Positions 7,847 to 53,284 of a stretch of 64,000 nt of DNA are shown in pieces. This DNA is from Gossypium raimondii (lineage: Eukaryota; Streptophyta; Magnoliopsida; Malvales; Malvaceae): NCBI RefSeq assembly GCF_025698545.1, contig NC_068569.1, forward strand, positions 248,001 through 312,000. Reading direction: 5' to 3'. Made by a program: the position numbers and the translations under genes. The number at the start of each line of letters is the position of its first letter. The stretch's first letter is position 1. The notes beneath the pieces were generated by a model, which had not been told where the DNA came from, ran no database searches, and was given only the letters and a program-made list of their open reading frames with translations.

Positions 7847-10800
7847 GGTCTTATTCTATCTGGGTGATTGCGGGATTGAGGTTGAGATAGAGAATGGTAG
7901 GCATAGGAGTGCAGGATCAGTCAGTTTGTGAGTGTTAGAATAGAATTTTTGTTGGGGGAGTATTATAAGTAAAATTAGTAGAGTTATCACATATTCGTGC
8001 TTTCTTCTTCATTCGAAGTAACGGTGATACCATATGGGAGAAAGATTGAAGAAATAGAGTTTCAATTCAAGCAGTTTGAGGCTGCGTAGAAGATGATTGG
8101 TATAAACTAGTGGACACATGTTTCTTAGTATTAAGATTTTTAGCTGAAATTATTAAATACCACTCACTCAGTTAATCATTAATTAGTTTTTTCTTAACAT
8201 ATTTGACGAATTACCATAAGCAACGCATGGATGGAATTTAATATAATATTATTTTTAGGGGAGAAATTTTATCCATTTTTGAAACAAACTAAGTACATTC
8301 ATCCAAAATTATTTTTGCATGGACCAGATTTCCTAGACACCTATCATGATATTTCCAGATGCGGTTCATTGGCATTTCAACAAGTTCAAATACCACCGCC
8401 TACAAAATCTATCATCAAACTTGTCTTCTCTGTCTGCAGCCCAATTCTCAAGTTTGCAACCTTTTTCTTCTTTACATAAATATAATATTTCAGAATTTTA
8501 ACATGTCGTTTTAAAACCGACTTGATTTAAGAATTAAGATACTACAAAGAGATGGTTTTTTGTAAAAAAAATTATAAGGGAATTGCTAGAGTGCTATAAA
8601 ATGAAAATTTTAATATTTTTTAACATGGAAAAGTAAAAAAATCAAAAAACCTTAAAACCGGACAGTGATTATCCAGAACTAAAGGCTATTCTTTGTACAG
8701 GATGACTATAATTCACCATGCCCTGCTTTCTACTTTGCCCATCCAATAAGACAAAACTTTCAAAAATAAGATATGAATCTATCTTTTTATGCAATATAAA
8801 ATTAATAATTAATTCATTATACAAATAATGAGGTTCAAAAGCAAGCTCGCATTTTTGGAATTTAAATGGATAACACGAAGACACTTGTTGAAGCAATAAA
8901 GAAAGAAGTAAAATTGATGTATGTAAAATATCTTGGAATGAAGGAAACACCTCTGACCCTCATCAACTCAAAATATCCTATACCCATTTCTTTTAAGAAA
9001 AAAAGGATGACACTTTCTAGAGTCCCACCCATTCTTTTACTTTGGTAGGATAAAAAAAAAATTACTTTTCATCCCTCATGTACTCTTTCCTTTTTATGTT
9101 TTACTCTTCTATGCTACCTTTTTATTAAATTTTGTTATTTATATATAGTGTACTTATCACCTCTTTCTATTAGGATCCAATACCATCTACACTTGGAGAT
9201 TTGAAAAAGAGGAGTGGGTGGCAGATTAGGAAATTTGAAAAAGGGAATATCATAGAAAGAAAGAAAGAAAGGGGCAGAATTGCAAAGGTGTCAAAATTAC
9301 ATAATAGTTTGGTTGATATAAATAATCACAACGTTTGCTTAGCATCTGCCACACAAAAGACGGCAAAAGACACCAAAAAGCCTCTATCAATGATTGATTA
9401 CTTCTTACATATACTATATCTGTATATGAAAGATGTCCAAAACCCTACCTCCTTACCTCGAGACACGTGAAAACGATTAAAGGGCATGCCACCTCAGCCC
9501 TAGAAAATCTAGAGTACCCAATCAGAGGATGCCAGTGCCATCTCAGCAGATAAGACCCTTTTCAAAGAATTTTGGACAACGTATGGGGTAGCATGCTACT
9601 TCCACCTTACCCTGCCCATCTTTACCATTACATTACTCAATTGCCCTTCATTTCCCCTTTTCAATTTCATTCTTCTTCTTTAAATCTATGCAACGCATCA
9701 ACAAATCCAACCCAACCCTTATGTTTTCAAATTGATTAGTTGTCCAATAAATTTTTGTAATAAGAGTTAGTTTATATTTTGTCTTATCTATTTAGAAAAT
9801 CGATATATTAATTTTTATATGTTAAATTATCGAATATTTTTATTTATTTATATCGTTAAAAATAGACATGATTGATTAATTTTTAAAAATAAAAAAATAA
9901 AACTTTAGTAAATAAAATGTTTACTTTTTAATCTAATTAATTTACCCCTTGAGAAAATAAGGGTAATTTTATGGTTGAATAGATTTAAGAAGAAGAGGTC
10001 AGAATGGTAAAAGAGCAATATGAAATAATTGAACAGTGAAAGTAAAAGGAGAGAGAGAGAGAGGGAGAGAAGGGGGGAGTGGTCCAGCAAGTGGGAGTGT
10101 GTGTCTTTTCCGTTGTTCCGATGTGATGTCATGTGAGATAGGATGATTCTCATATCTCATAATCATCTAATCAATTTGATTAATTTGTGAATTTTGAAGG
10201 GGTAAACATAGAAGAGAAGAGTGGCCAGCCTGCCGCTGCCAGCCTGCGTATATCACTGACACCATTAAATTCAACTCCCCCCAAACGGTTCTTTCTCTCT
10301 CTTTTATCTCTTCCTTTTTTCCACCTCGTGACCTACTGACTCTACTCTGCACTCCCTTCTTGTGCTACCCAAAATCCCTTCTTCTTTTTATATTATATTT
10401 AAATATCTCTTCTGTTCAGCTCAAATTTTAGTATTTTCGCAGACATATCTTCCCTCTGTCTATTGACACTTTTCATTCCTTTTTTCTCCATAAAGCTAGG
10501 GTGCCTCTGCATATCTGGGTTTTTGTGAATTTCATTTTGTTTGGTTGGTCAAAACCAATAGTATTTTTAAACTAGGTAAGCTACTATATAGCCTTGTTGC
10601 TAAAAGAATTCTTTTGTTTAGTTTTAGAGTTGCCCTACCTGTTGGGTTCTTTTATATATATATGTGTGTGTGTGGGTTTCTTCTTTGTAATTGCCGTCTT
10701 TGTTATCAAATTTACAACAAAAAAGCCAAAGAATTGTTTTAATTAATTATGTATATATATTGTTAGTAGGAGAGACTCTACCATTTTATTTCTTAAAATT

Positions 10801-27354: not shown

Positions 27355-27582
27355 AGAATTATCAAATAATATCAAAATATTTAAAATATTTGTACAAATT
27401 AATTAATCTCATTTTATTACATCAAATAATATCAAAATAACTCAAAAAAATTTCTATTTTATTACGTCAAATAAACTTCTATTTTATTACATCAAATAAT
27501 ATCAAAATTAATCAAAAAAATTTTCTATTTTATTACATAAAATAATATCAAAATATTCAAAATATTTGTACAAATAAATTTA
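27355..27582. repeat. degenerate AT-rich tandem repeat
   Basis: The phrase ATCAAATAATATCAAAAT recurs four times, at about 27361, 27420, 27499 and 27538, separated by TTTCTATTTTATTAC blocks. This gives an irregular array with 40-80 bp spacing between the two convergent transposon gene remnants. Confidence 0.6.
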
Positions 27583-30622: not shown

Positions 30623-32354
30623 CCTGGCATCATCTAAAAAGGCGGTTGCGTGGGTATCATCGGTTGAACTGCTGCGTCGGGTGACTGTGTCGGTGCTCTC
30701 GTTGGGCTTGGTGATTGCATGGTCGCTGATGATAAGCCGGGTGAATGTCTGGGCCTCGTTGAGGGGCTGCCTTCGTTGTTTTGTCATCTTGGATTTAGAG
30801 GCCCGCGTCTTTCCCTTTCGACACGTATTTGCCGCTGCCTATCCTCTGGCATCAGTAAATACGGCTTTGCCATGGATCCTAAACCATGGCATGTATTCTG
30901 GAACGCATGCTAACTCCGGAACGATGATTGGTTCCCGAGTAGGTATATATTCATACCGATCTTCCCACATTTCCATGTACTCGGACCAGTATCTTGGTCA
31001 ATCCATATTCAATTACCGAAGGTCGACTTTGTATTGATCGTCAAACACCTCAGGATCTACGGGAATCGGTTGTCTACATCCAAACTGTCGTAGCACTCTG
31101 TCTGACTGGTGCGGCTCCACAGTTGCGTAGTTGATCAACACGACTTTCACGTGCCAAGCTTGTGGATTTTGTAAGAACTCTTCCGGAATTACTGCCCGAA
31201 TTACCGGATCCTCGTATGGTGTCTATTGAAACTATATGAACATGATAGAAATATTAGTTATACACATAATACTAAATACTAAATACCAATCGACTAGCGA
31301 ATGTATGGAAATATCTATTTTATTTAATACTTACTTGTGCTTCCGACCGTTGGTCCAATAGAAGCCGTATATCTTCAAGAGAAGTAGGTAATCGAGCATG
31401 ACTTGCCGGATGGTTCCACCTAATTAAATAAATTTTTAGCATACTTTTATTTTTAAAAATCTACATAATAATTGTAAAATCTAATATAAAATTTACCTCG
31501 TTATGAGTGGGAATGTATATGGGTCGTCCACTAGAGGACGTAGAAATGGAAAGCGAAACCGTGCCTATGACTGCAGTAATGACAGGCAACCTCCGATTTT
31601 TGCTCTCCTCGGTAGCGTCGCCCCGCACATCTCCCGATATAACGTTGCCAAGACGGCAGACCCCTAACTCAATTCACCGGCTGCTCTAAAATCAACGAGT
31701 TTCAGCAGCCATCTTAGATGTATGCGGCTCCTTGACGTGTCGGGCATCAGATAACCTCCAATTAATTGAAGAATATATGCCCGAGCATATTGGATTCTTT
31801 CAATTTCAGTTGAATCTTCATTCGGATTAGGTGTCACGTAACCAGCCCATCTCAATCTTACCTCCCTCCATTTTCTCCGGAATAGCGCCCAAAAGATCGT
31901 AGCACACCGCCCCCCCAATCGCTAGATTGGGCAGACCCGGTGACTGGGTACCCGTCCACCAGCAATCCCAATTTAGACTGACATCTTCTAGAGTGATAGT
32001 GCACTCTCTACATGGAAGATGGAATGTGTGCGTCTCGGGTCTCCACCTCTCGATCAACGCACTGATTAGTTTCGGGTCCACCTTGCATCCCCGGCCTACC
32101 GTCGCCACGTGCCAAAAACCCGCTTCCCGCAGGTAGTTCTCTACCAACGGTGATGGAGGACCATGCATATTCCAGATATTGCATTCCAATACCCGATCTA
32201 CAGACTTTTATAACAAATAATAAATTAATAATTATCTAAAAATGAATAAATAAAAATTTCTTAAATAATATTTAGAAATTAAATTTAACACTTACCATTT
32301 TCATTTGTTCCACCGATATGTGATGCTTATCAAGACAGTCAATTCTCCGGCCAT

Positions 32355-37800: not shown

Positions 37801-38412
37801 CCTGCTCACAAAAAGTGTTATTTCTTCCTTAGCAAACATCCTTTACATGGTAGATTTTGCATGCTATCCATCCAAACCTTTTATACAAGACCAGACCTTG
37901 AATGAATTTCTTCCCAATACATCAGTTCATGAAAGGGGAGTTCAAGGATAATAACCATGACACTAAATGGGATAAGAAAATATATACGAAGTACATGAAG
38001 AGTTCAGATTTTAGAGAAGAAAAACAAACTAGCAGCCGAAAAGGAAATAACTTACACAGAAGAACCTATCCCAAAGCTTCTCGAAAGGCAGTGAACTTGG
38101 AGTTAAGAACATGAATGCAATTTTAGAATATTTAGGCTGGATGCGAGGTATATGCAAAATATCCCTAAAAACCACCTTAGATGCAAACTCCTCATCAGTT
38201 AGTTCCCTTGCAGGAGAAGGTAGAGGCCGATCAGTAACGGCCTTGCAACCTTTAGAAGAAAATACGTAGCAAGCAGCATCGCCATGTGGTGGATAGATAT
38301 AAGAACAAGCTAGAAAAAGGCTGACTAACGAAACGAAGAAAATAATCCATACGGGCCTCTTCAAAGCAGGGCGGTGGCTAGACCCTGGCAACATCTGCAT
38401 ATCACCACCCAT
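34845..38412 (-). CDS. GT14 family glycosyltransferase (BC10 / core-2/I-branching-like, DUF266)
   Basis: Minus-strand exons: 38412-38056, 36701-36603, 36343-36243, 36148-36077, 35958-35868, 35674-35594, 35441-35382, 35300-35178, 35074-35036 and 34961-34845, in frame to 379 residues. A short cytosolic tail (MGGDMQMLPGSSHRPALKRP) precedes one membrane anchor at about 19-40, the type II layout of Golgi glycosyltransferases. The catalytic region shows KIAFMFLTPSSLPFEKLWDR, GHEGKFSVYVHASKEQPVHV, FVLLSESCIPLHSFDYVYDY and ADEHYLPTFFH, all typical of plant DUF266/GT14 proteins. Rice BC10 acts in cell-wall and arabinogalactan-protein glycosylation; the acceptor here is unknown. It best recalls Arabidopsis At5g57270/At4g25870. 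Intron 1 is 1,354 bp, and a 5' UTR intron with a donor near 38972 is likely. The last exon diverges just after its start but keeps NGVRRPCYLFARKFYPETL. Confidence 0.9.
35729..35753. repeat. 25-bp intronic copy of GT14 exon 5 sequence
   Basis: These 25 bases are identical to 35888-35912 inside exon 5, 159 bp away in the same orientation. The copy lies in the intron between exons 5 and 6 and looks like a small local duplication. Confidence 0.8.
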
Positions 38413-40148
38413 GCTGCCTTTATCTAGTACAAACACCAAAGCTTTATATTCATGTGATTCTCTCTCAAAAAAAGAGAGTAAGCAAACAGCAACCAACCAG
38501 GGATTCTTCAATTGATCAATGGACTGTGATCTGGGAAAGCAAACCACAGGTAAAAGCGTCAGTATTTGTGACAAAGTATCAAGTCCATGAGATCAAAATC
38601 AAAACTTGGGTCGTAAGTGGCGACTTGAATACCCAATGAAACAAACCCCATCAAATCCTTAACCTTAAAACTTGGGTAATGGAATTATAACTTTTTTTAA
38701 TAAGAAACTCCAAAATTGATCTTCGGTTTTACTTGGGAAATGAGTAAAGAATGCAAAACAGATATATGGCGTAAATAGACCAAACACAGCATCTTTCAAC
38801 AATTTCCAACAAAAATCAGGAGAAAAGCCAATACAAACCAATGACCTCGTTGGTCCAACCTAGCGCTCACAGTACTCTCACCCCAAAAAGTGATAAAATA
38901 TGAAACTAAATCATTTCCTTAAAAGAAACACACAAAATGAAGCAGCAACTGAAAGAATGAGAGAAGCAAGTACCTGAAGAATGGAGCTGATTGAAGAAAT
39001 TGAAAGAGATCTTAAAACTCGCTAATTCCAAAGACGTTAAGATCTAGGGTAGACAGAGCATGAAACAAGAAAAAAGAGAAAGGAAAGATTTTGTGCTGGT
39101 GTGTGAGTATATAAGATTAGGCTCTGTAAAACGGGCTTTTTGTTGTTGTTGTTGTTGTTTCTTTAGAGGATTCGGTTTTGTGCTTGTGTCTGGGTTCTTC
39201 CTTTGATTTTGTACTAGCTATATTATTTTGTACTTTATGAGTTTTGTAGTGTTGTTAGTGAGAAGAGAGGAAGAACAGGGTCGAAGAAGAAGCTTCCGGG
39301 GACTAAATGACTGCCAATTCACCCAACATAAGCAAGATTGTAGCTATAATCCGAATCCAGGACGGGAGTTTTTAAGGTGAAGGTGAGTGGCGCTGGATCA
39401 AGTGTTGTGTTGTTTTTATGTGCGTATCGAAGTTTAAAGCTGCTTGCTTTTTGGCTTTTGGCTTTTGGCTTTTAGGATCAACTGTCAATGCATTGCCGCT
39501 TTACAAGCGCGTGTAGTTTCCCGCCAACTCAACCAATAATGCAATCCCTCACAAATACACACTGTTTTTACCAAAAAATATATTTTCCTATTTTATAATT
39601 AATAAACTTTTTTTTATTTGTTTTTGTTTTTTTTAAGGTACTTCATTAGTATGTTGTATGATTTTCATGTGCACACATACATTCTATCATAAAATACATC
39701 ATCTTAGTAAAAAGTTTTTAAGGAAAAAATAGCTAATTCTTGAATCATTTTTCCTTTTCTATTTACAGCCACTTTTCAAATCTCATATTGTACTAAAATC
39801 TTTCATAATTAATTTTGAAAAGAAAATTAAAATTAAATTATTTTAGAAAAGGAAATCAAACATCCTTACAAAAACAATGATTTTCATGAAGAATTGAAAA
39901 ATGAAATGTTGCAACATAAAGAGATTAGAATTCAATGCTTTATTCAATCTGGTGGCCCACAAAGAAATTAGGAAATCATCAATTAACCACAATCCATAAT
40001 TTTGTACCCAGAAAATGAAAATTCCCAACGCAACACAGAGCCATAAATATTTGTTGGTATACATGTTTGTCCAACTTAAAAATAATAATACTTTACAAAT
40101 TAATTAAGAGATAAATACAAAAATAAATGATAAGACGTTTGGCATAAA
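38413..40148. other. GT14 leader/promoter and spacer
   Basis: Contains the inferred 5' UTR exon (about 38973-39120), a GTT microsatellite at 39141-39161, a promoter-like tract to about 39500, then AT-rich spacer. No coding region was seen. Confidence 0.5.
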
Positions 40149-40297
40149 GCAAGAGAGAGCAAAGGTGAATCAAGAACAACTTGCCGAAAGATTAAATGAA
40201 AGCCGGGTAATATTAAATGAAAGCCGGCTAATCACCTATTACCTTTGACGTAAATCCGGCAAGTCATTCTTGACTCAAACCCCCACTCTCTCTCTTT
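40149..40297 (-). ncRNA. MIR169: MIR169 microRNA precursor
   Basis: On the minus strand a foldback of about 149 nt carries a miR169-like mature strand on its 5' arm at 40277-40257. It starts TGAGTCAAGAATG and ends ACTTGCCG. The star strand at 40185-40165 reads GGCAAGTTGTTC then TTGATTCAC. The two arms pair over about 17 of 20 positions plus G:U, and the stem extends through GAGAGAG/CTCTCTC at its base. miR169 is known to sit on the 5' arm and to direct cleavage of NF-YA transcripts. The mature strand differs from Arabidopsis miR169d at position 5 (C to U) and position 10 (G to A). The loop of about 70 nt holds a 21-bp tandem duplication. A TATA box lies about 80 bp upstream. The pairing was judged by eye. 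Confidence 0.85.
40191..40232. repeat. 21-bp tandem duplication in the MIR169 loop
   Basis: ATTAAATGAAAGCCGG followed by GTAAT and then by CTAAT, two adjacent copies differing at one base. Confidence 0.8.
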
Positions 40298-40359
40298 CCA
40301 TGCAACAATGCCCTTCATTGACGCTGCATGCCTATGCCTTCCACCATTGCTAATATCAC

Positions 40360-40369
40360 CTATTTATAG
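40360..40369 (-). promoter_or_regulatory. TATA box of the MIR169 gene
   Basis: The minus strand reads CTATAAATAG, about 80 bp upstream of the mature miR169 strand. It predicts a transcription start near 40330-40338, just ahead of the hairpin, as is usual for plant MIR genes. Confidence 0.6.
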
Positions 40370-41704: not shown

Positions 41705-44700
41705 CTATTCAGTGACGATTTCTGTTAAACCAGATCTAAAATGTCCGTGCTTACCACAACATTCTTTCATATAGCTCTTGCAACAACCACCCATTTCTCT
41801 CTTCTCCACACTCATACAAGCTTGCGCTGTCTCATGGCTTGTGTTCATTGGAATGTCTATGGCAGTGTGAGGTGACTCCCAATAATCTGTAAAACACTTG
41901 TTTGAATAAGGATGAGCCTCTGGTTTCGGGCTCTCTAAACAACTATGCTCTACAAAGGTTCCTAAAGTTTGACGGTCAGTATGGTTTCCACCACAAGTGG
42001 AATGACACTGATCAGCTTTTGTCCCTTGCTGATTAGACGAATGATGGCAGTGCTTTTCCCCTAACTTGCCATGGCTTGAACAACATTTACTGGGCAAATT
42101 GTGAGCCTCAATCTTGTGATTGACTATGTTACAGCTTCCCTGGTCACAATGCTTCATTTCACGTGTCCCTGTTGACTCTGTACATTTGTTGCTCCCACAT
42201 GAATTTGAAGATGCATCTGAATTGGAAGGGTTAGATTGACATCTAGAGGCACAGCTACGGGAGGAACATTTTTGGGGCTCACATGCCTTTTGGACCTTTT
42301 TGTCTATACTAGAATGTTCATGGTTATGAGATGAATGGCAATGACTGGTGTTACATCCTTGCTTGTCTTTATGTGATGCAGCTGAAGATTTGCTACATTT
42401 TCCAGCATGCTTGTGTGTTCCGTGTAAAAGGAGCATGCTATTGAAGATCACCAACAAGCATGTGCCAACGTCGGCAAGAACAGCTGCCCATACAAGTGGA
42501 TGACCAGCAAATGCCAGTGCAAGAATAGCCACCTTAGTACTGATTGACAAAATTACGTTCTGAATCACTTTCCTATGAGCTTTTCTCGCGAGTCGGATAG
42601 CTTTTGGTATCTTTCTAATGTCATTTGACATGAGAATTACATGACCTGTCTCTGTTGCAAGTGCTGAACCCGAAATGCCCATTGAGATGCCAATATCAGC
42701 TGTAGCAAGTGCAGGTGCATCATTGATGCCGTCTCCAAGCATTGCTGTTGGCCCCTCTTTCTTAAACTCTTCAACTATTCTTGCCTTGTCTTGGGGAAGA
42801 AGGTCTGCATGGATCACATCTAGACTATTCCCCAGCTGCAAGTTCCTGCCATGTTATTCTCTACTAACAAATGAAGGCAAAAAGTACAAGACATGAGTTG
42901 TAGATTGGAAGTGCACCTGTTCTTGTACATGTATGGCTGCTGCTTGATTGTCTCCTGTAAGCATAGCAGTCTTGATCCCCATTGACTTGAGCTCATTTAC
43001 TGCTTCTGCAGCCCCAGTTCGGCAAGCATCCGAAAGACTGAAGATTCCAGCAGGGGTTGCCCCACAAAATACATATCCAATGGTCTTTCCTTCCATCATA
43101 TTACCTTCTACATTCGGAGCTATATACATAACAATACTCAAATTAGAATATGAACTCAGAATTATAAAATGGATTATTGATCAATAATGCTATGAACAGG
43201 GGTGGGTGTCCACTGATTAAATAAGGTGAAGCAATAGCTTTCACCTGTTCCATGGGCTCTCACTGATACTTTTCTGCTCCCAATGTAAATATCTCTTCCA
43301 TCAATTCTCCCGTAAATACCTTCGCCAGGGAAATTTTGATAATCCTCCACAGTTTCAGGCTTTGGTTCAATTGAATGTGATCTTCCATATTCTATAAGTG
43401 CAGCTGCCATTGGATGACTTGACTTACTCTCTATGCTTGAAACCCTTCAAAAATAATGTAACATAATGATTGAAAATCTTAACTGAGCCACTTTTATTTT
43501 ATTACATGTTGCTCTCTGTCTTAATCGTAAATTCACTACATTATTCATAGAAAATGTCTCAAAGCCCGTACCAGTAAAGCAATGAATTGAAGCTTATATC
43601 TTGGCAGAGAGATCGAAAATTGGTCACAACAAATTCACCCCTGGTAAGTGTACCAGTTTTATCAAAAGCTGTGATCTTGATGTTGGAAAGAATTTCGAGA
43701 TAGTCACCCCCTTTAACCAAAAGCCCCGATGTTGCAGCTTTTGTAAGTGTACAAAAGCTGGCAACAGGAGTGGAAAGTATAAGCGCACATGGACATGCAC
43801 TCACCAACACGACCAGTGCCAAGTGAAACCAGTGGCGAAGGTTATGCACTCTAAATGCAGCTGGAATCACAGCGATGGCGACTGATACAACTATAATTGC
43901 TGCAAATAAGTTGAGTAGTATTATTATGTTTGCATTTTAGAAAGATGGAAATTGATACAAAAAAAAAAAAAAAACCTAACCTGGGGTGTAGAACTGGGCA
44001 CATTTGTCTATGAATCTTTGGGTGGTGGATTTGCTATTCTGAGCTTCTTCCACCAGCTTTGCCATTTTAGCTACTACACAGTCTTCTGCCACAGCAGTAG
44101 TTTTAACACTAATGTAACCTACATTATCATTATATATAGAAATTAGAAGCAGCCATTGAGCACCAAAAGTGATGGAATGTAGGTACCATTTAAATTAATG
44201 GTGCCAGCCCAGACAGTTGAGTCCTTTTGTTTGGAAACAGGAAGCGATTCACCGGTGAGGGTTTTCTCATCCACTTCACAATTCCCATCTACAACGATTC
44301 CATCAATGGGTATGACTTCACCCGCCTTAACAGCCAGGACAGTGTTCAATTTGACTTCATCCACATCCACTTCTTCTCCACTCTCGGCAATGACCGCTTT
44401 TTGAGGACTCATACTCATCAATGACGACATAACAGCAGTTGCCTGAGACATCAGGCAATGCATGGTGTGAGATAGGAGGTTGGAATTTGTGTAAGATGAT
44501 AGGTACATTCACAGTGGTGAGAGAGGCAAACCTTATGGCTTGCTCTTGACTCAAGCCATTCCGCAATGGTGAAGAGGAAGACTATGGTGGCAGCTTCAGT
44601 GTAGTCTTTCATTGCAATGCTCCCTATCACTGACAAAACAAAAAACAGATACTGTTTAAGACCAAGTTATTACACATAATTCTTTGTTATCATATTTTTT

Positions 44701-47669
44701 TAAAACGAGTTTCTACGTATGTTCCTTAAAGAATACTGTTAAAATGTTTACTGAATGTTTCATGTAGTATAATTTTGGACTCATGCCTGTAACAATGGGC
44801 CAAGTCTGACTTCAAACTTATTATTATGATTTAAAATGGATTAATCAAATATCAATTTAAAATATATTTTCAATAATTAAATAAATAAATTTTCACATTT
44901 TTAATGTTTATTTATATAAAAAAAAGTATATCAAACATGTAGTAATTCGAATCAAAATGACCAACCCATAACGTATTATATTTAAAATTTCACATGGTAT
45001 TAGGTGATTTTCAATGATTTAATTCAAGTAATGAATGAAATAAATTGGGAATTTCCTTAATGATACTGAAACATCTATTTTGGAATGAAGGCTACTTCCC
45101 AATTAACAAACAACAAAAGTAGCCTAAGGTTGAAAGGAGCATTATGCCAAAGCAAGATAAAGTTACATTAAAGGGAAAAAGGACGAAAGAGTAACAACTA
45201 ATGGCAATGGACTGTCTCAAGGGACTCAAATTCTACAGTTTTCTTTTTCTTTTATAGAAAGAAACTAAAATCTCTAGTAAATCTCTTCCTTGAAGAACTG
45301 GCAATTCATTATATGTAAATGGAATAATACGTAGACTATGCCTATGACGGTGGCTTTGAAAATTGTTGTCTTCTTTTCTAAGGAAAACGTATCTTTATAT
45401 ATTTTGTGGATATAAAGTATCTTTCTTTTTTCCCTTTTTTGATAAAGTATTTGTCAAATTAAAGACCGCAAGAAAATAAAGGGAACAATAACTTAAAATT
45501 CAACCCGACTTCAAATTTTAATTAAAAAGAAAGAACAATCAAAACTCAAACTATACGTGCATTTGATATATATATATTTTTGAATTTTCGATTGTCATAG
45601 GGCAAGTTTCCATGGGGAACAAATTAAAGAACTTTTGGGCACGTGCATATCAATTCATATAATTTGAATGGGTTACAAAAAAAAAAAGGCAAGTCAAAAG
45701 AGGGGGGCAACATTAGCTTTACTTGCATTTGGACTCCACCTCAAAAAGTGCCTTATCTCATGTAATGCAGTACTATTACCACAATGAAGCAAAGCCACCA
45801 CTAAGTTTTATGATTTTGTTGCATGCACTACTGTTATACATATTTGATTTTAATTTTTAAAAAATATATTTGATAAGATCCTTTAGGGTTATGTATTAGA
45901 CAACTTCATTTAGATGAATCTCAAATGCATAAAATTCATAATTAAATCATCATCATCATCCTAAAAGGGAGAAATTACTTCCACCCTTTTTTATTCTCAT
46001 CTCTTTCTCCTTTTGAGAAGCTCCTTCGTTATTATTCTGATCACATAACATGAATCAGTTGTGTTAATTGATAACCAGATTTCTTGAATCAGCTCTCTTT
46101 TCTTCTTATTTCCTATAAATGTTTGAGTTTTTTTCTATATTACAACTGGAAACAATTAAAAGAAAGAGGAAGAAGATGTTTGTTTTGATGGGTAATAAAC
46201 TAGTAGGAGCTTCTTAAAAAGATGAGAATAAAAAGGGTTGCTGTGTATAATAGGAAATGGCATAATAAAATTTTGGGTCAATAAAAAGTTGCCAACTAGC
46301 CTAAGATGCCACGTCAAATCTCGTGTAATTTCATGTGTGCGAATCAGTTTATTCTAAATCCAAAATTCGGATTTTTATTCTCTATAAGATTTACTTGTAT
46401 ATGGAATCAATACGTAGCTAACCCTCCAAATTATAAATTCTCATTATCTCTTTTATTAAAAAAATAAATTACTTCTCATATATTAAATAAATATTAAATT
46501 AATTTTTAAAAATTTTATTCATTTCTATTATTAAAATCTGAATAATTAAATAGTTACACATGACGTGTTAGGTATAACTCAGATTGACGTACAAAAATTA
46601 ATTTTTAACCATAAAATAAATAATTTTTTAAGAAAATAATCAAATTACTATTTAATCTAAGACTAATTTATTTTTTAATAAAAAAATGCAACCTACTTCT
46701 CTCCCCTACTTTTTACTCCATAATAAAAGCACATATCCAAACAAATAAATAAAGCATACACGTATCCTATATCCTGCATATGCCCAAATAATGAATGACC
46801 CATCGAAGGAAAATAGACATTATGATTTGTATGATAAAAGAAGATGGCATCAAACTATAATAAGTAAGTAAGGAATGACCCTTTACGCCATCTGTGGTTT
46901 TATCTCTCGGCCGGTTTCTGGCCTGTTGTTTGTCTGTTTTTCAAAGAGAAAGTAGTTGTATTTTTTTGGTTAAAGAAAAAGAAATAATACCTGCTATTAG
47001 CATGAGAATGTTGATATCCAGCCTGAAATTGGTGATAGCAGCATAACCCTTCAAAAGAATGGGGCAGATACCAATAACCACCGCTCCCACCGCCACCCAT
47101 TGTAAAGGACGGTAGACATACTTGAAAAACGATATCAAAAGTAGCAACCCACAAGCCATTGCAAAAGGACTTGGCCATTTCTTTTGGTACTTTATCTCCC
47201 CATGTGCTCTCACATTTGCTTCCAGTCTTGCTTGATTTAGAGCCTTTACTGTTAAAAAAAAATAACACCTAATTTCGTAACAAATTCTAAAAAAGAAACG
47301 CTTAGTGTGGTCCTCTTAGCATTCCATACTGGGGCCTGAGGGCACTCAACTCGCTACAATATCTTTCTTGACTCAACCTAACATACCCCTTTTTCCATTA
47401 AAAAAGGGTGGCCAATTATTACTTTTCAGAAATCAACTTGGTAAATATATTGTAATAAGAATACTTGTTGAGGGTTTACCAATTTGAAGCTGAGACACAA
47501 GGAGATTGTCGTGAACAACAATGACAGTTCTTGTAGGAACAATCACAGATACTTGTTTCACTCCTTCAAGGGGTTTCAATATGTTTTCTATCAGCGGAAC
47601 CTCAGAGGAACAACATAGTCCCAACACGTCGAAGTAACTCCTCTGCAGTTTTTTCTTATTTGCAGCCAT
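41705..47669 (-). CDS. HMA2: P1B-type Zn/Cd-transporting ATPase, HMA2/3/4 group
   Basis: Minus-strand exons: 47669-47480, 47248-46991, 44629-44532, 44442-44187, 44118-43981, 43899-43572, 43444-43245, 43119-42917 and 42835-41705, in frame to 933 residues. The N-terminal metal-binding domain has the GLCCSSE di-Cys motif (Cys19-20) typical of plant Zn/Cd pumps. Later come TGES in the actuator loop, the CPC membrane site (about 349-351), the phosphorylation motif DKTGTLTR (Asp about 393), SHP and GDGINDAP. The last 240 residues are rich in Cys-Cys and His-x-His, a cytosolic metal-binding tail. The protein exports or sequesters Zn2+ and Cd2+ at the plasma membrane (HMA2/4) or tonoplast (HMA3). The tail is shorter than Arabidopsis HMA4 and lacks its poly-His end. 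Intron 2 is 2.36 kb. The exact orthologue among HMA2/3/4 is unsettled, and the symbol is provisional. Confidence 0.92.
44630..46990 (-). other. large intron 2 of the HMA gene
   Basis: 2,361 bp of AT-rich sequence between exons 2 and 3. No ORF, terminal inverted repeat or LTR was recognised, so the cause of its size is not apparent. Confidence 0.6.
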
Positions 47670-50600
47670 TTTTTATTCCTTCAAACCAAACAGCGAAAAT
47701 TAAAATTAAGAGTTTGGAAATGGGTATTAGAAACAGAAAAGCGGATGGGTAGAAATGGTTGAGAGGTAGGAAGGTTTAAGTAGAGGCGGAGGAGGGGAAA
47801 CTGCTCATTGAGAAGACACAATTCAGTAAAAAAGAGAGTATGTGGAAGGGAATAAATAGAGAAAAAGAAGTGTGTTTGATTTGGGATGTTGGGGTGGGGA
47901 ATATAATGGGCTCATATCTCTAGTAGGACGAAGTCAGGGAAATAATGGAGAATGAAGGCTTTGCAAATTGCAATGCAATGGAATCCACATCTGAATCCAC
48001 CTTTTTTCATACGATTTATAGTTCATTTATTAATAAAGTTACTGTCTCTCCCTTACTTTGAACCTCAGTTGGTATATCAAACGACAATAAGAAATTAATA
48101 TATTATTCGGCTTGCAATTTAACTTTGTCCAGCAACGCATGTTGGTTGTTTGTGTTCAGAAAAATATTTTAGATTAGCATTATTTTTATTTATTATTAGA
48201 TTATTTTTCTAGTTTTTAAGTGAATATATGTGGACTGTTACACGTCAATATCATTAAAATTTCATAGTTCGATCAATTTTTCTATCTAAAAGAAAATAGT
48301 TTAACTAATTTTTAAAGTCGAGAGTTAAACTAATAAAAAAACTTTAAAGTGACAAAAAATGTAAACTTTAAAAGTTAAATTTATCATTATATCTAAACTT
48401 ATCAAATAATATTTCACTAAATTTAAAATGGTATAAGTATCAAAAAATTTATTTCACTCCATTTAAAATGGTATAAGTATTTTTTTTTGAAAAATTTTAA
48501 ATTTCATGAGGATAAGAATTCTTAAAAATATAATTGGGTAAGAACTAATTACTTAAAATTGTGATTTAAATATGAATTAATATTTTTCTTCAAAGAAGTA
48601 ATACATTAATATTTTATTGTTTTTGAGATAATTTTAATTTATGAATATCAACAATCAGTATTAATATATATTAGATTTTGTCACACTACTCATAATGTGC
48701 GTGAAAGAAAATATCTTAGGTTTATAGATGGAGTGGTAATGGACCTGTAATTTAATGTATTACTATTGAACACATATTCGATCCTTAAATTTGTAATTGT
48801 TTTATTTAAAATAGTGTAAAAGTATGAAAATATAAAAGTTCCATCATTATAATTTTAATTATAAATTAAAATGAAGGTATATTTCTATAAATTTTAAGTT
48901 GGTGACCTAATTAAGGGTGATATCAACTTAATAAAATACTTAAATAACAATATAGATAATTATCAATTGATTATAAGATATTTCAAAATATTTATGGTAA
49001 AAACTATTTGCAAGTAGATATTATTATGTATCAAATAATAATAAAAGTATCAAACATCGAATATATATAATTTATATAAAAACATGAGTTTGGAGAAACT
49101 TTTAAATTAACTTTAAAAATAATTATAATTTAATTTAAAATTATTAGTTAAAATTTGTGCTAATTTTAAAATGTAGCTATTACTCGAATAGAATCCTAAA
49201 CATAAAATATATATAAAAATTGTGATAATTATATTCATGCAAAATAGAGTATTATTTGAATAGAATTTTAATAATCTTAATTAATGCTAGAGTTATATGC
49301 CGATCAAAATTAAAATTTAGTTTTATAAATAACATTCAATAGTTAGACATATTCAATCAATCAAGTAACATATAAGAAAAATACCAATAAAATAGAGAAT
49401 TAAATCAATATTAGTTATTTGAAGAGCAATGTTAAATTATATTCGAATGACGGTGACATCGGAGAGTGATCCAATATTATGTTTAATAGATGATGAGGTA
49501 ATATAGTATTATGATATTATTATTTTTAAATCTATAAGTTTATATTGTGTGAAGTAAACACTCTTAAAATATGTTTCTTTTTTTTATCTATATGTTGTTT
49601 GGTGCATGCAAAATTGTTTTGTAGGTTTATTTTGAAAAGAAAATCAAATTTCAATAATTATTTTTAATCACTATTGTTTAAATATCTTTCATATTTTCGT
49701 GACCTATTATTGTAATTATTGTATGTGTAATTTTTTTCAAATTAACATTACAATTTACTTTCTCATATAGTCCTAAACTTGTATAATATTTAAAATTAAG
49801 ACAAATTATCATCATCAAGATGATAATATGTAATGGAATTTAAAAATTAAACATGTAAAATTACATATAATGCATGTAGTAATAAAACCGAAAATATCAA
49901 ATGATCATATGACTTAAATGTTTTTTTTCTCAAAAATCATTACCTTATAATATTCCGCTTTTTTGTAAATATCATTAAACAGGTTTTGGTATTTACATTT
50001 TGAATGGTCTGATTTGTTGGTTTGCTTATTGCACAAAGACATATACATGTACTACGTTGAAACCAAAATAAGTAGAACTTAGCTTGTTCCTAAAATAAAA
50101 TTTTAGCTTTCCCAAACCACAGATGATTGGGCTACCAAACATTTTTGCCATCTGGGCTGTTAACAAGATTTGTTTTATTAGAAACTAGCATTTATTCACA
50201 GAACATAAGGTTCTCTTTTTCTGCTATAGTTTGTCACTTGGTTCATTGCCTACGTCAAGAGTCAAGAGTCAAGACTCAAGATAAGGGATAATGATTTTTG
50301 AAGGGTCGATTATCATGGGATTTGGCAATGATGTTGAAGTAGTTCCAGCCATTTTTGCTTGCTTTTGAGAGCTCAATTTTCTGTTAATCTATGGTGGAAT
50401 GGAGAATCAAAATGAAATTAAGATAATTAATAAATGTTAGAGGTTAATTTTTTTTAGAATAATAATCAAATTGATATAACGTGTAAATAATGATATATTT
50501 CAATTTTAAAATTATCACATTATCTCCTATCACAAATTTAACGGAACTGGGTAAAAAGATTAACACAATTAATTGAATAACAAATGATAAAAAAATTTAA

Positions 50601-51284
50601 TCATAATTAAGTACCTAAGTATAATTTACCCTTAAAAGTACTATGGAACGATTGGAAACGTTTATCTTCGTATTTTAGATTTTTTTTATGACAAAAGTTA
50701 TAAGAATATTTTTGGGTGCTAAGTAATGCATCTTTTAAAAATGTAATAGAATCCATAGCATATTAGCCATCGTTTAATATAATAGTATTATTTTGATTGA
50801 TTTTAAATTTACTTTTCAATAAAAAATTTAAATAAAAAGCGAAAAGTTAAAGGTTATCTTTCATTGAAAAGAAAATTATCCTTCACAAAGAATATTTTAA
50901 GATTTGTACTTTTGGGTGGCACCTATGTTTCCATTTTCAACCTGTTAGCATTTAACTTACAATTTTATTTCGGATTGTATCTTTAGTCAGATGCACAATT
51001 TGTTTAACCATCTAATCACAAGCCATATTTTCTAAGAACAAGAATAAGAATAAAGGAGCAAATATTCTCAAAGGATAATCTTACTTCTCATTTACAATAT
51101 AAATATATAAATTTCTATAATGATAAGTTAGAGTGGACACAACCTTTCGAGTGACATTTAGCATTTTTACTAATAGATAGGTTCTCAATTTTCAATTTGG
51201 GTGGGCGGCACAAAAGTCGACCCCTTAATTTTCATATACCCCAATTTGAACTCTATGCCCATACCAATCGCATTATTTAATTAA
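47670..51284. other. HMA promoter, then long AT-rich gene-free region
   Basis: The first 350 bp is GA-rich on the + strand and should include the HMA leader and promoter. The remainder is AT-rich with no gene, RNA or clear repeat. Confidence 0.5.
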
Positions 51285-51491
51285 GGGTAAGTTATATTAG
51301 TACTTATCTAACTTGGGTTTTTTTTTTTTTTTTGTCATCCAACTATGAAAAGTTACAAAATAACCACTTAACTATTTAATTGCCTTTTTGGGTGACAAAA
51401 AAAAAGATAATATTGGATGAAAATTTTGTAACTTTTCATAGTTATGTGACAAAATAAAACATATTTAAGTGACTATTAATGTAACTTACCC
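51285..51491. mobile_element. foldback MITE, about 207 bp
   Basis: Ends GGGTAAGTTA and TAACTTACCC are inverted. The interior halves also pair (AACTATGAAAAGTTACAAAAT against ATTTTGTAACTTTTCATAGTT), so nearly the whole element is one long hairpin. A TTAA/TTTAA-rich flank prevents a firm target-duplication call. Confidence 0.7.
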
Positions 51492-53284
51492 TTTAATTTA
51501 TCATAGCCAACCATTGGATAAAGTATTATATCACCTATGTACAGAGGCAGATTGAGGGGGCTGGCAGGGCCTCGACCCCCGTAAAATGAAAATTTTGTCA
51601 TTTTGAGAAAATGAGAAAGGATATCCAAGAGATGCTAAATGCTAATGTTTTATATAACCTCTTTTTTCCTTTAATTGTGTATGATGTGCATTTCTTTAAT
51701 ATAGATTGTGTGTATGAATCAAATAGGTTAGAGCCGAGTGCTAAGTGCTAAGTGAATGGTATTGCACGCCTTTTTATATAAATCTTATTTCTAGGTTTAT
51801 TTTTTTATGGTGCATGAGTTATTTTTTTCTATTAATTATAGGCTCATTAACCATTTCCTGTAATTTCTTCGTTATAAATTAATAATGTTGTGGGGATGCT
51901 AATTGCATAAAAATCATATTAATTTTGCACGATTATACATTCAAACCATAAACTATAACTTGATATCAGGATAGATAATAAGCGAATGGCAACAATTGCA
52001 TATGCATCTTCTTTTAACTCTACAATTATAAAATAAACAAAAGGAGCACATTGCGCTCTGCGTCATCAACTAAATTACTTGAGGATGCCCACTCATTTTG
52101 CAATGTCCTTGCCCAATATTATTCCACCAACTCAAGATATAATAATTATATACAAACCCTGTTTCAAGTCTTGGGACAAGCTAACTTATATTTGTTCCCT
52201 CACCTGTTGGCTTTTATGCGACATAAACTGCAATTCTTAGTACTATTGCAAATCTACATGTTTCCTTTTTTGTTTTTTTAATCCTTTTTCCACACGATTG
52301 GAAAAGCTTCCATTTATATCATTTCATATTGCACTTCAAAAACCTTAATTCATTTCGTCCTCAAATAATATATACATGCCAACACAACCTAACAAGGATA
52401 TCTGGCTTCTTTTTTCAGATATTTGAAATTTTATGGTTGTATTTTAATTCAAATAAAAAGAGAAAAAAATAATAAGTTTGCATTGAAAATGGAAGAACCT
52501 TTTGGTTCAACAACAACATCATGGTAATGTTCAATGGGAAATAAGATGATATAAAAAAAGAAAAAGAAAAAAGGATGGTGGCCACTGAGATATCATTAAA
52601 TTCCAAAAAACCATGATATGAGAGTAGAGGAGAAATCATCAAAGTCATCCCCATTTCCTAATCATTGAGTCGTAAATCAATTATCGCCATGCAATAAGCG
52701 GAAGGATTGTATATATCTGGTACAATAATCTACACCTACACCTACACCTACACCTACTAGTGGGTTGCCCACTCCTTTCTTTCTTAATGGCCCAAGCTTG
52801 CTTTAAATATCAATCATGTTGGAATAAGTTGGTCCACAAGATCAATTTTGTGAAGCTAAAATTAAGTTTGTTTTGTTTTAGTAATAAATTCTTACGTATC
52901 ATCAAATAATATAAAAATGGACAGTTTCTGTCGCAAAAGAAAAGAAAAGAACAAATAATGGTGCGTTCCATATATCAAGAATCATGAGGAAATGGGATAT
53001 TGCTTGGCCAATCCTATCTTTACTTTAGGCAAAGATACAAATGAAAGTGGGATATGATCCCTCTCCCAAACAGCAAAATAAAGTGGGTGGACAACGTGTC
53101 ATTACATTGAAAAATAACGACAACCTCATAACAGTCCGCATCAAATTCCATTTATGTCTGATGCGTATTTGTTGATAATCAAGAAAATGGGCCGAGTCGA
53201 GTCGTCCAAATCTATTTCCATGCTTGTTTGAGACATGATAATTTATCTCAGGGCCTCATGAGTGCTAATAATTCTACTTCAAAC
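51492..53284. other. gene-poor spacer
   Basis: Bases 51540-51600 have a G/C-rich motif (GAGGGGGCTGGCAGGG ... CGACCCCC) resembling the end of a decayed DNA transposon. A six-base TACACC repeat lies at 52731-52757. Otherwise AT-rich with no gene. Confidence 0.5.
52731..52757. repeat. TACACC microsatellite
   Basis: About four and a half perfect copies of a six-base unit. Confidence 0.8.

Follow-up and report, generated by a model that had tools for sequence, protein, structure and literature searches.

The window, a 64,000-nucleotide stretch of Gossypium raimondii DNA, carries on its minus strand what looks like an unremarkable MIR169 gene copy (Table 1). The presumed mature strand differs from the 21-mer of miR169d, which we take as the reference, at position 5 (C to U) and at position 10 (G to A), as the original prediction held. 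We consider it probable that this is a functional-looking MIR169 gene in which the variant bases favour target sites with U opposite position 10 (U-type) and disfavour sites with C there (C-type). The locus is chiefly of annotation value, as one more MIR169 locus.

Table 1. Features of the MIR169 locus and the basis on which each was placed.
Feature	Position in window	Strand	Basis
MIR169_2 (RF00645) precursor core	40154..40287	minus	cmscan, 67.5 bits, E 4.9e-17
Extended MIR169 stem-loop	40142..40303	minus	minimum-energy fold
Presumed mature miR169 strand TGAGTCAAGAATGACTTGCCG (U5, A10)	40257..40277	minus	similarity to miR169 and position within the fold; ends presumed
Presumed star strand GCAAGTTGTTCTTGATTCACC	40164..40184	minus	2-nt 3' overhang on the pairing table; ends inferred
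21-bp tandem duplication	40188..40229	minus	distal loop and upper stem
TATA-like box CTATAAATAG, a candidate core promoter for MIR169	40360..40369	minus	place upstream of the hairpin

A cmscan search with 4227 Rfam families returned the MIR169_2 match, above its gathering score of 50 and spanning model positions 1-118 of 118, and no other gathering-level match in the 64 kb. On the plus strand, a match of 39.8 bits, which is below gathering, covers almost the same stretch; we take it to be the foldback seen in mirror image. Allowing for as many as three mismatches, the canonical miR169 21-mer matches the window at this locus alone, and a blastn search at E 0.01 found no second copy of the hairpin in the window, returning the hairpin itself. 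The presumed mature 21-mer occurs once on the minus strand (40277-40257). A pattern for NF-YA-like sites matched the window once, at the antisense of this hairpin's mature arm, and that match was set aside.

Both arms had been described as readable on the minus strand, and folding bears this out. The 171-nt fold has an energy of -78.8 kcal/mol (z -9.48), and none of 200 shuffles was as stable. The mature strand lies on the 5' arm and pairs with the 3' star arm at all of its positions 2-21; position 1 is unpaired in the minimum-energy fold. The star-strand ends were set with U1 facing A40166, a pairing that differs from the minimum-energy one. Foldback of the core motif gives 18 of 18 pairs at this locus; among 48 bacterial and viral stretches the maximum was 14. 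Core-motif matches in those stretches (12 from viral contigs and 36 from genome contigs; 300 bases 3' of the core motif covered) were taken as chance, none of the 48 reaching 15 of 18 pairs.

Below the miRNA, the lower stem first has two bulged nucleotides on its 5' side, then 16 pairs and then a two-by-two internal loop; in a 256-nt fold it is extended further down. Sequential processing from base to loop has been reported for ath-miR169b, and miR169 is counted as one of 14 families whose processing mode is conserved (PMC8688358). The long paired lower stem modelled at this locus would be compatible with such processing, and a longer loop would then be expected to have little effect.

The loop holds the predicted 21-bp tandem duplication, which is present as 40188-40208 and 40209-40229 with 90% identity (40191-40232 and 95% in the TRF version). 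Shuffling the 69-nt loop 1000 times with its composition kept never produced a comparable repeat. Tandem arrays are not rare in the window: TRF gave 11 rows with a period of at least 10 and a score of at least 70, some of them overlapping and the loop duplication counted among them. Elsewhere, 27411-27562 holds overlapping tandem arrays with periods of 25, 46 and 70 and TRF scores up to 235.

A TATA box had also been claimed on the minus strand, and the TATA-like 10-mer is there (40369-40360), with one more copy in the window, on the plus strand. By itself it is weak evidence because the window has 23 copies of the shorter TATAAATA (9 minus, 14 plus); its position upstream of the hairpin suggests a promoter role.

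The two variant bases are accommodated by the hairpin. In the cmscan alignment to the Rfam consensus, C5-G has become U5-A and G10-C has become A10-U, so both changes are two-sided, with the star arm changed too, as expected of a hairpin under constraint. Two further changes are one-sided and produce wobbles (G4-C to G4-U and U12-A to U12-G), and no pair is lost at mature positions 2-21. Each of the four arm changes is a transition or can be reached by way of a wobble pair. The pattern would fit drift under a fold-keeping constraint, and a decaying copy less well; as a comparison of a single sequence with a consensus, it is suggestive.

The original prediction called the base at the slicing position unusual. 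It does differ from miR169d, whose 21-mer is also the one printed for miR169l, m/p and o of grape, but a homologous A is not rare across the miR169 family. It occurs together with C5 in soybean miR169f-5p, g and h (PMC3141666), in 5 of 11 5p-type miR169 rows examined from an Acacia table (aa, j-5p, k, r and z; PMC3981707) and in a castor miR169 form (PMC3722108). The soybean forms and Acacia aa, k and z start one base later, which makes this A their position 9. In the UGAG register of the window, A10 without U5 is printed for Acacia (PMC3981707), and the literature listing adds A10 in pomegranate and mulberry. Grapevine miR169r, u and t are printed with U5 and G10, again in this register (PMC3145640, PMC3353164); the literature listing gives U5 in this register in 7 papers, every one on grapevine, and A10 in 3. 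The combination of U5 and A10 was not found in the main texts searched, those of CC0, CC BY and CC BY-SA papers; its core was absent from all 24 papers that contained at least one of six cores, and within these openly licensed main texts alone the double variant is unreported.

Whether the targets carry compensating bases or are cut less well, the two outcomes originally proposed, was approached through the seven miR169 rows of Table 2 in a Brassica napus paper, which are predicted from a degradome resource (PMC3909011). In the register of the window miRNA, the base opposite position 10 is U in two of these printed rows (ath-miR169b and mtr-miR169d) and C in the other five, so that position 10 is paired in 2/7 predicted sites and mismatched in 5/7. 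Opposite U, the usual G10 forms a G:U wobble and A10 a Watson-Crick pair; opposite C, A10 gives an A:C mismatch at the slicing position. U5 forms a U:G wobble with all seven printed sites, which weakens pairing.

Pairing scores on these sites separate the two types. On the U-type sites (S1 and S2) the window miRNA scores 3.0 and 4.0, the same as a C5-G10 miRNA, with duplexes that are about 2 kcal/mol weaker net (-27.5 versus -29.7 and -26.2 versus -28.4 kcal/mol) because of U5. On the C-type sites S3 and S4 it scores 5.0 and 5.5 versus 2.0 and 2.5 for C5-G10, with duplex energies of -22.8 and -21.8 versus -31.9 and -31.4 kcal/mol. Each of the four C-type sites printed ungapped is penalized by +3.0; the fifth, gapped in print, has the same A10 mismatch. 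Together, U5 and A10 reduce duplex energy on C-type sites by about 9-10 kcal/mol. Each proposed outcome thus fits some of the printed sites: a compensating U is present at two of the seven, and since C stands opposite position 10 at the other five, poorer cutting would hold for the C-type sites. A10 is not simply the worse base, and the idea that it suits most NF-YA sites was dropped on the same count (2 U, 5 C).

We take the ath-miR169d row to be NF-YA2/10-like and the remaining printed sites to be NF-YA sites. Several NF-YA genes are U-type. In Table 1 of the Brassica napus paper, mtr-miR169d alone is tied to NFY (PMC3909011). Preferred NF-YA targets have been reported for miR169 isoforms (PMC5239796, PMC11885863).

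From these observations a course of events can be proposed. Transcription would proceed from below the TATA-like box, and the transcript would fold into the hairpin, which DCL1 would process in the base-to-loop order reported for the family. This would release a 21-nt miR169 with both variant bases matched on the star arm. After loading into AGO1 it would be expected to slice NF-YA mRNAs. A10 would favour host sites with U opposite position 10, of the CAUUCUUGGCUU type, and would disfavour those with C there, of the CAUCUUUGGCUCA and CAUCCUUGGCU types. U5 and A10 most likely narrow or shift the choice of targets, and it is more probable that they change which targets are cut than that they break the miRNA. 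Both miR169 forms and printed target sites vary in the base at the slicing position, and the A10 and G10 forms therefore lend themselves to a natural test of how a single base at position 10 governs the choice among NF-YA targets. A further-reaching version, which we regard as possible but unlikely, is that the double variant is a separate isoform that co-evolved with U-type NF-YA sites and leaves the C-type NF-YA genes, presumably NF-YA2/10-like, uncut. If true, one slicing-position base would split NF-YA regulation between MIR169 loci.

A rival reading, the second of the outcomes originally proposed, that this is a weakened MIR169 copy, expressed, poor at cutting NF-YA mRNAs and perhaps heading to loss, we hold to be improbable. 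It would account for the A10:C mismatch in five of the seven rows, the U5:G wobble in every row and the energy lost on the five C-type sites when both variants are present. Two two-sided arm changes and an intact set of pairs at positions 2-21 speak against decay, and A10 improves the pair at U-type sites; U5 and A10 are moreover each printed singly in miR169 forms of other plants.

That the hairpin is a non-expressed relic, or yields siRNAs instead of a miRNA, seems to us quite improbable. Long near-perfect stems can suit other Dicer-like enzymes, and this locus has such a stem, but a TATA-like box lies just upstream of the hairpin, and the Rfam score, the conservation of the arms and a duplex free of mismatches at positions 2-21 point to a miRNA gene. 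Chance pairing or a sequencing artefact is exceedingly improbable, and no observation spoke for either: chance is excluded by the Rfam E value, by the fold shuffles and by an expectation of 0.00 occurrences, over 100 window shuffles, for the canonical 21-mer with up to three mismatches.

The gene lies between two coding-like regions on the same strand. Upstream are ORF pieces matching E1-E2 ATPase and hydrolase domains, with a Cys/His-rich tail (41705-42853); we presume that they resemble plant heavy-metal P-type ATPases. Roughly 1.3 kb separate the miRNA gene from the stop of the ATPase piece. Downstream is an ORF (38029-38592) with a weak Core-2/I-branching match below the Pfam cut-off (E 0.041). 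GC content is 0.245 in the 4-kb bin at 48001-52000, and the window's remaining bins range from 0.317 to 0.388.

Two further miRNA-like matches fall below their gathering scores and were rejected as miRNA genes. An AT-rich inverted repeat at 46504-46633, seen on both strands, resembles Rfam MIR7502, with 51.9 bits on one strand and 34.7 on the other where gathering requires 71. Short partial similarities to it occur elsewhere in the window, for example at 9875-9936, with 73-95% identity among the matches listed (12 rows, the first being the repeat itself), and the repeat could be a MITE-like element instead. The MIR2679 match at 31927-32046 on the minus strand (31.1 bits against 97) is within an ORF with a plant mobile domain.

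Among known systems, the locus resembles the MIR169_2 family (RF00645) in its full-length model match, in the arm that carries the mature strand and in its hairpin plan. It departs from the family model, which has C5 and G10, by U5 and A10 with their partner changes on the star arm and by the 21-bp loop duplication. We take the mature strand to be in the miR169d/e/f/g-type register. As printed, grapevine vvi-miR169r/u (UGAGUCAAGGAUGACUUGCCG; PMC3145640, PMC3353164) shares this register and U5 with the window miRNA and differs at one of 21 nt, having G10 in place of A10. Acacia acr-miR169r (UGAGCCAAGAAUGACUUGCCGG; PMC3981707), entered against cme-miR169r in the Acacia table and printed there with 16 reads, shares the register and A10, and its one difference over 21 nt is C5 where the window miRNA has U5.
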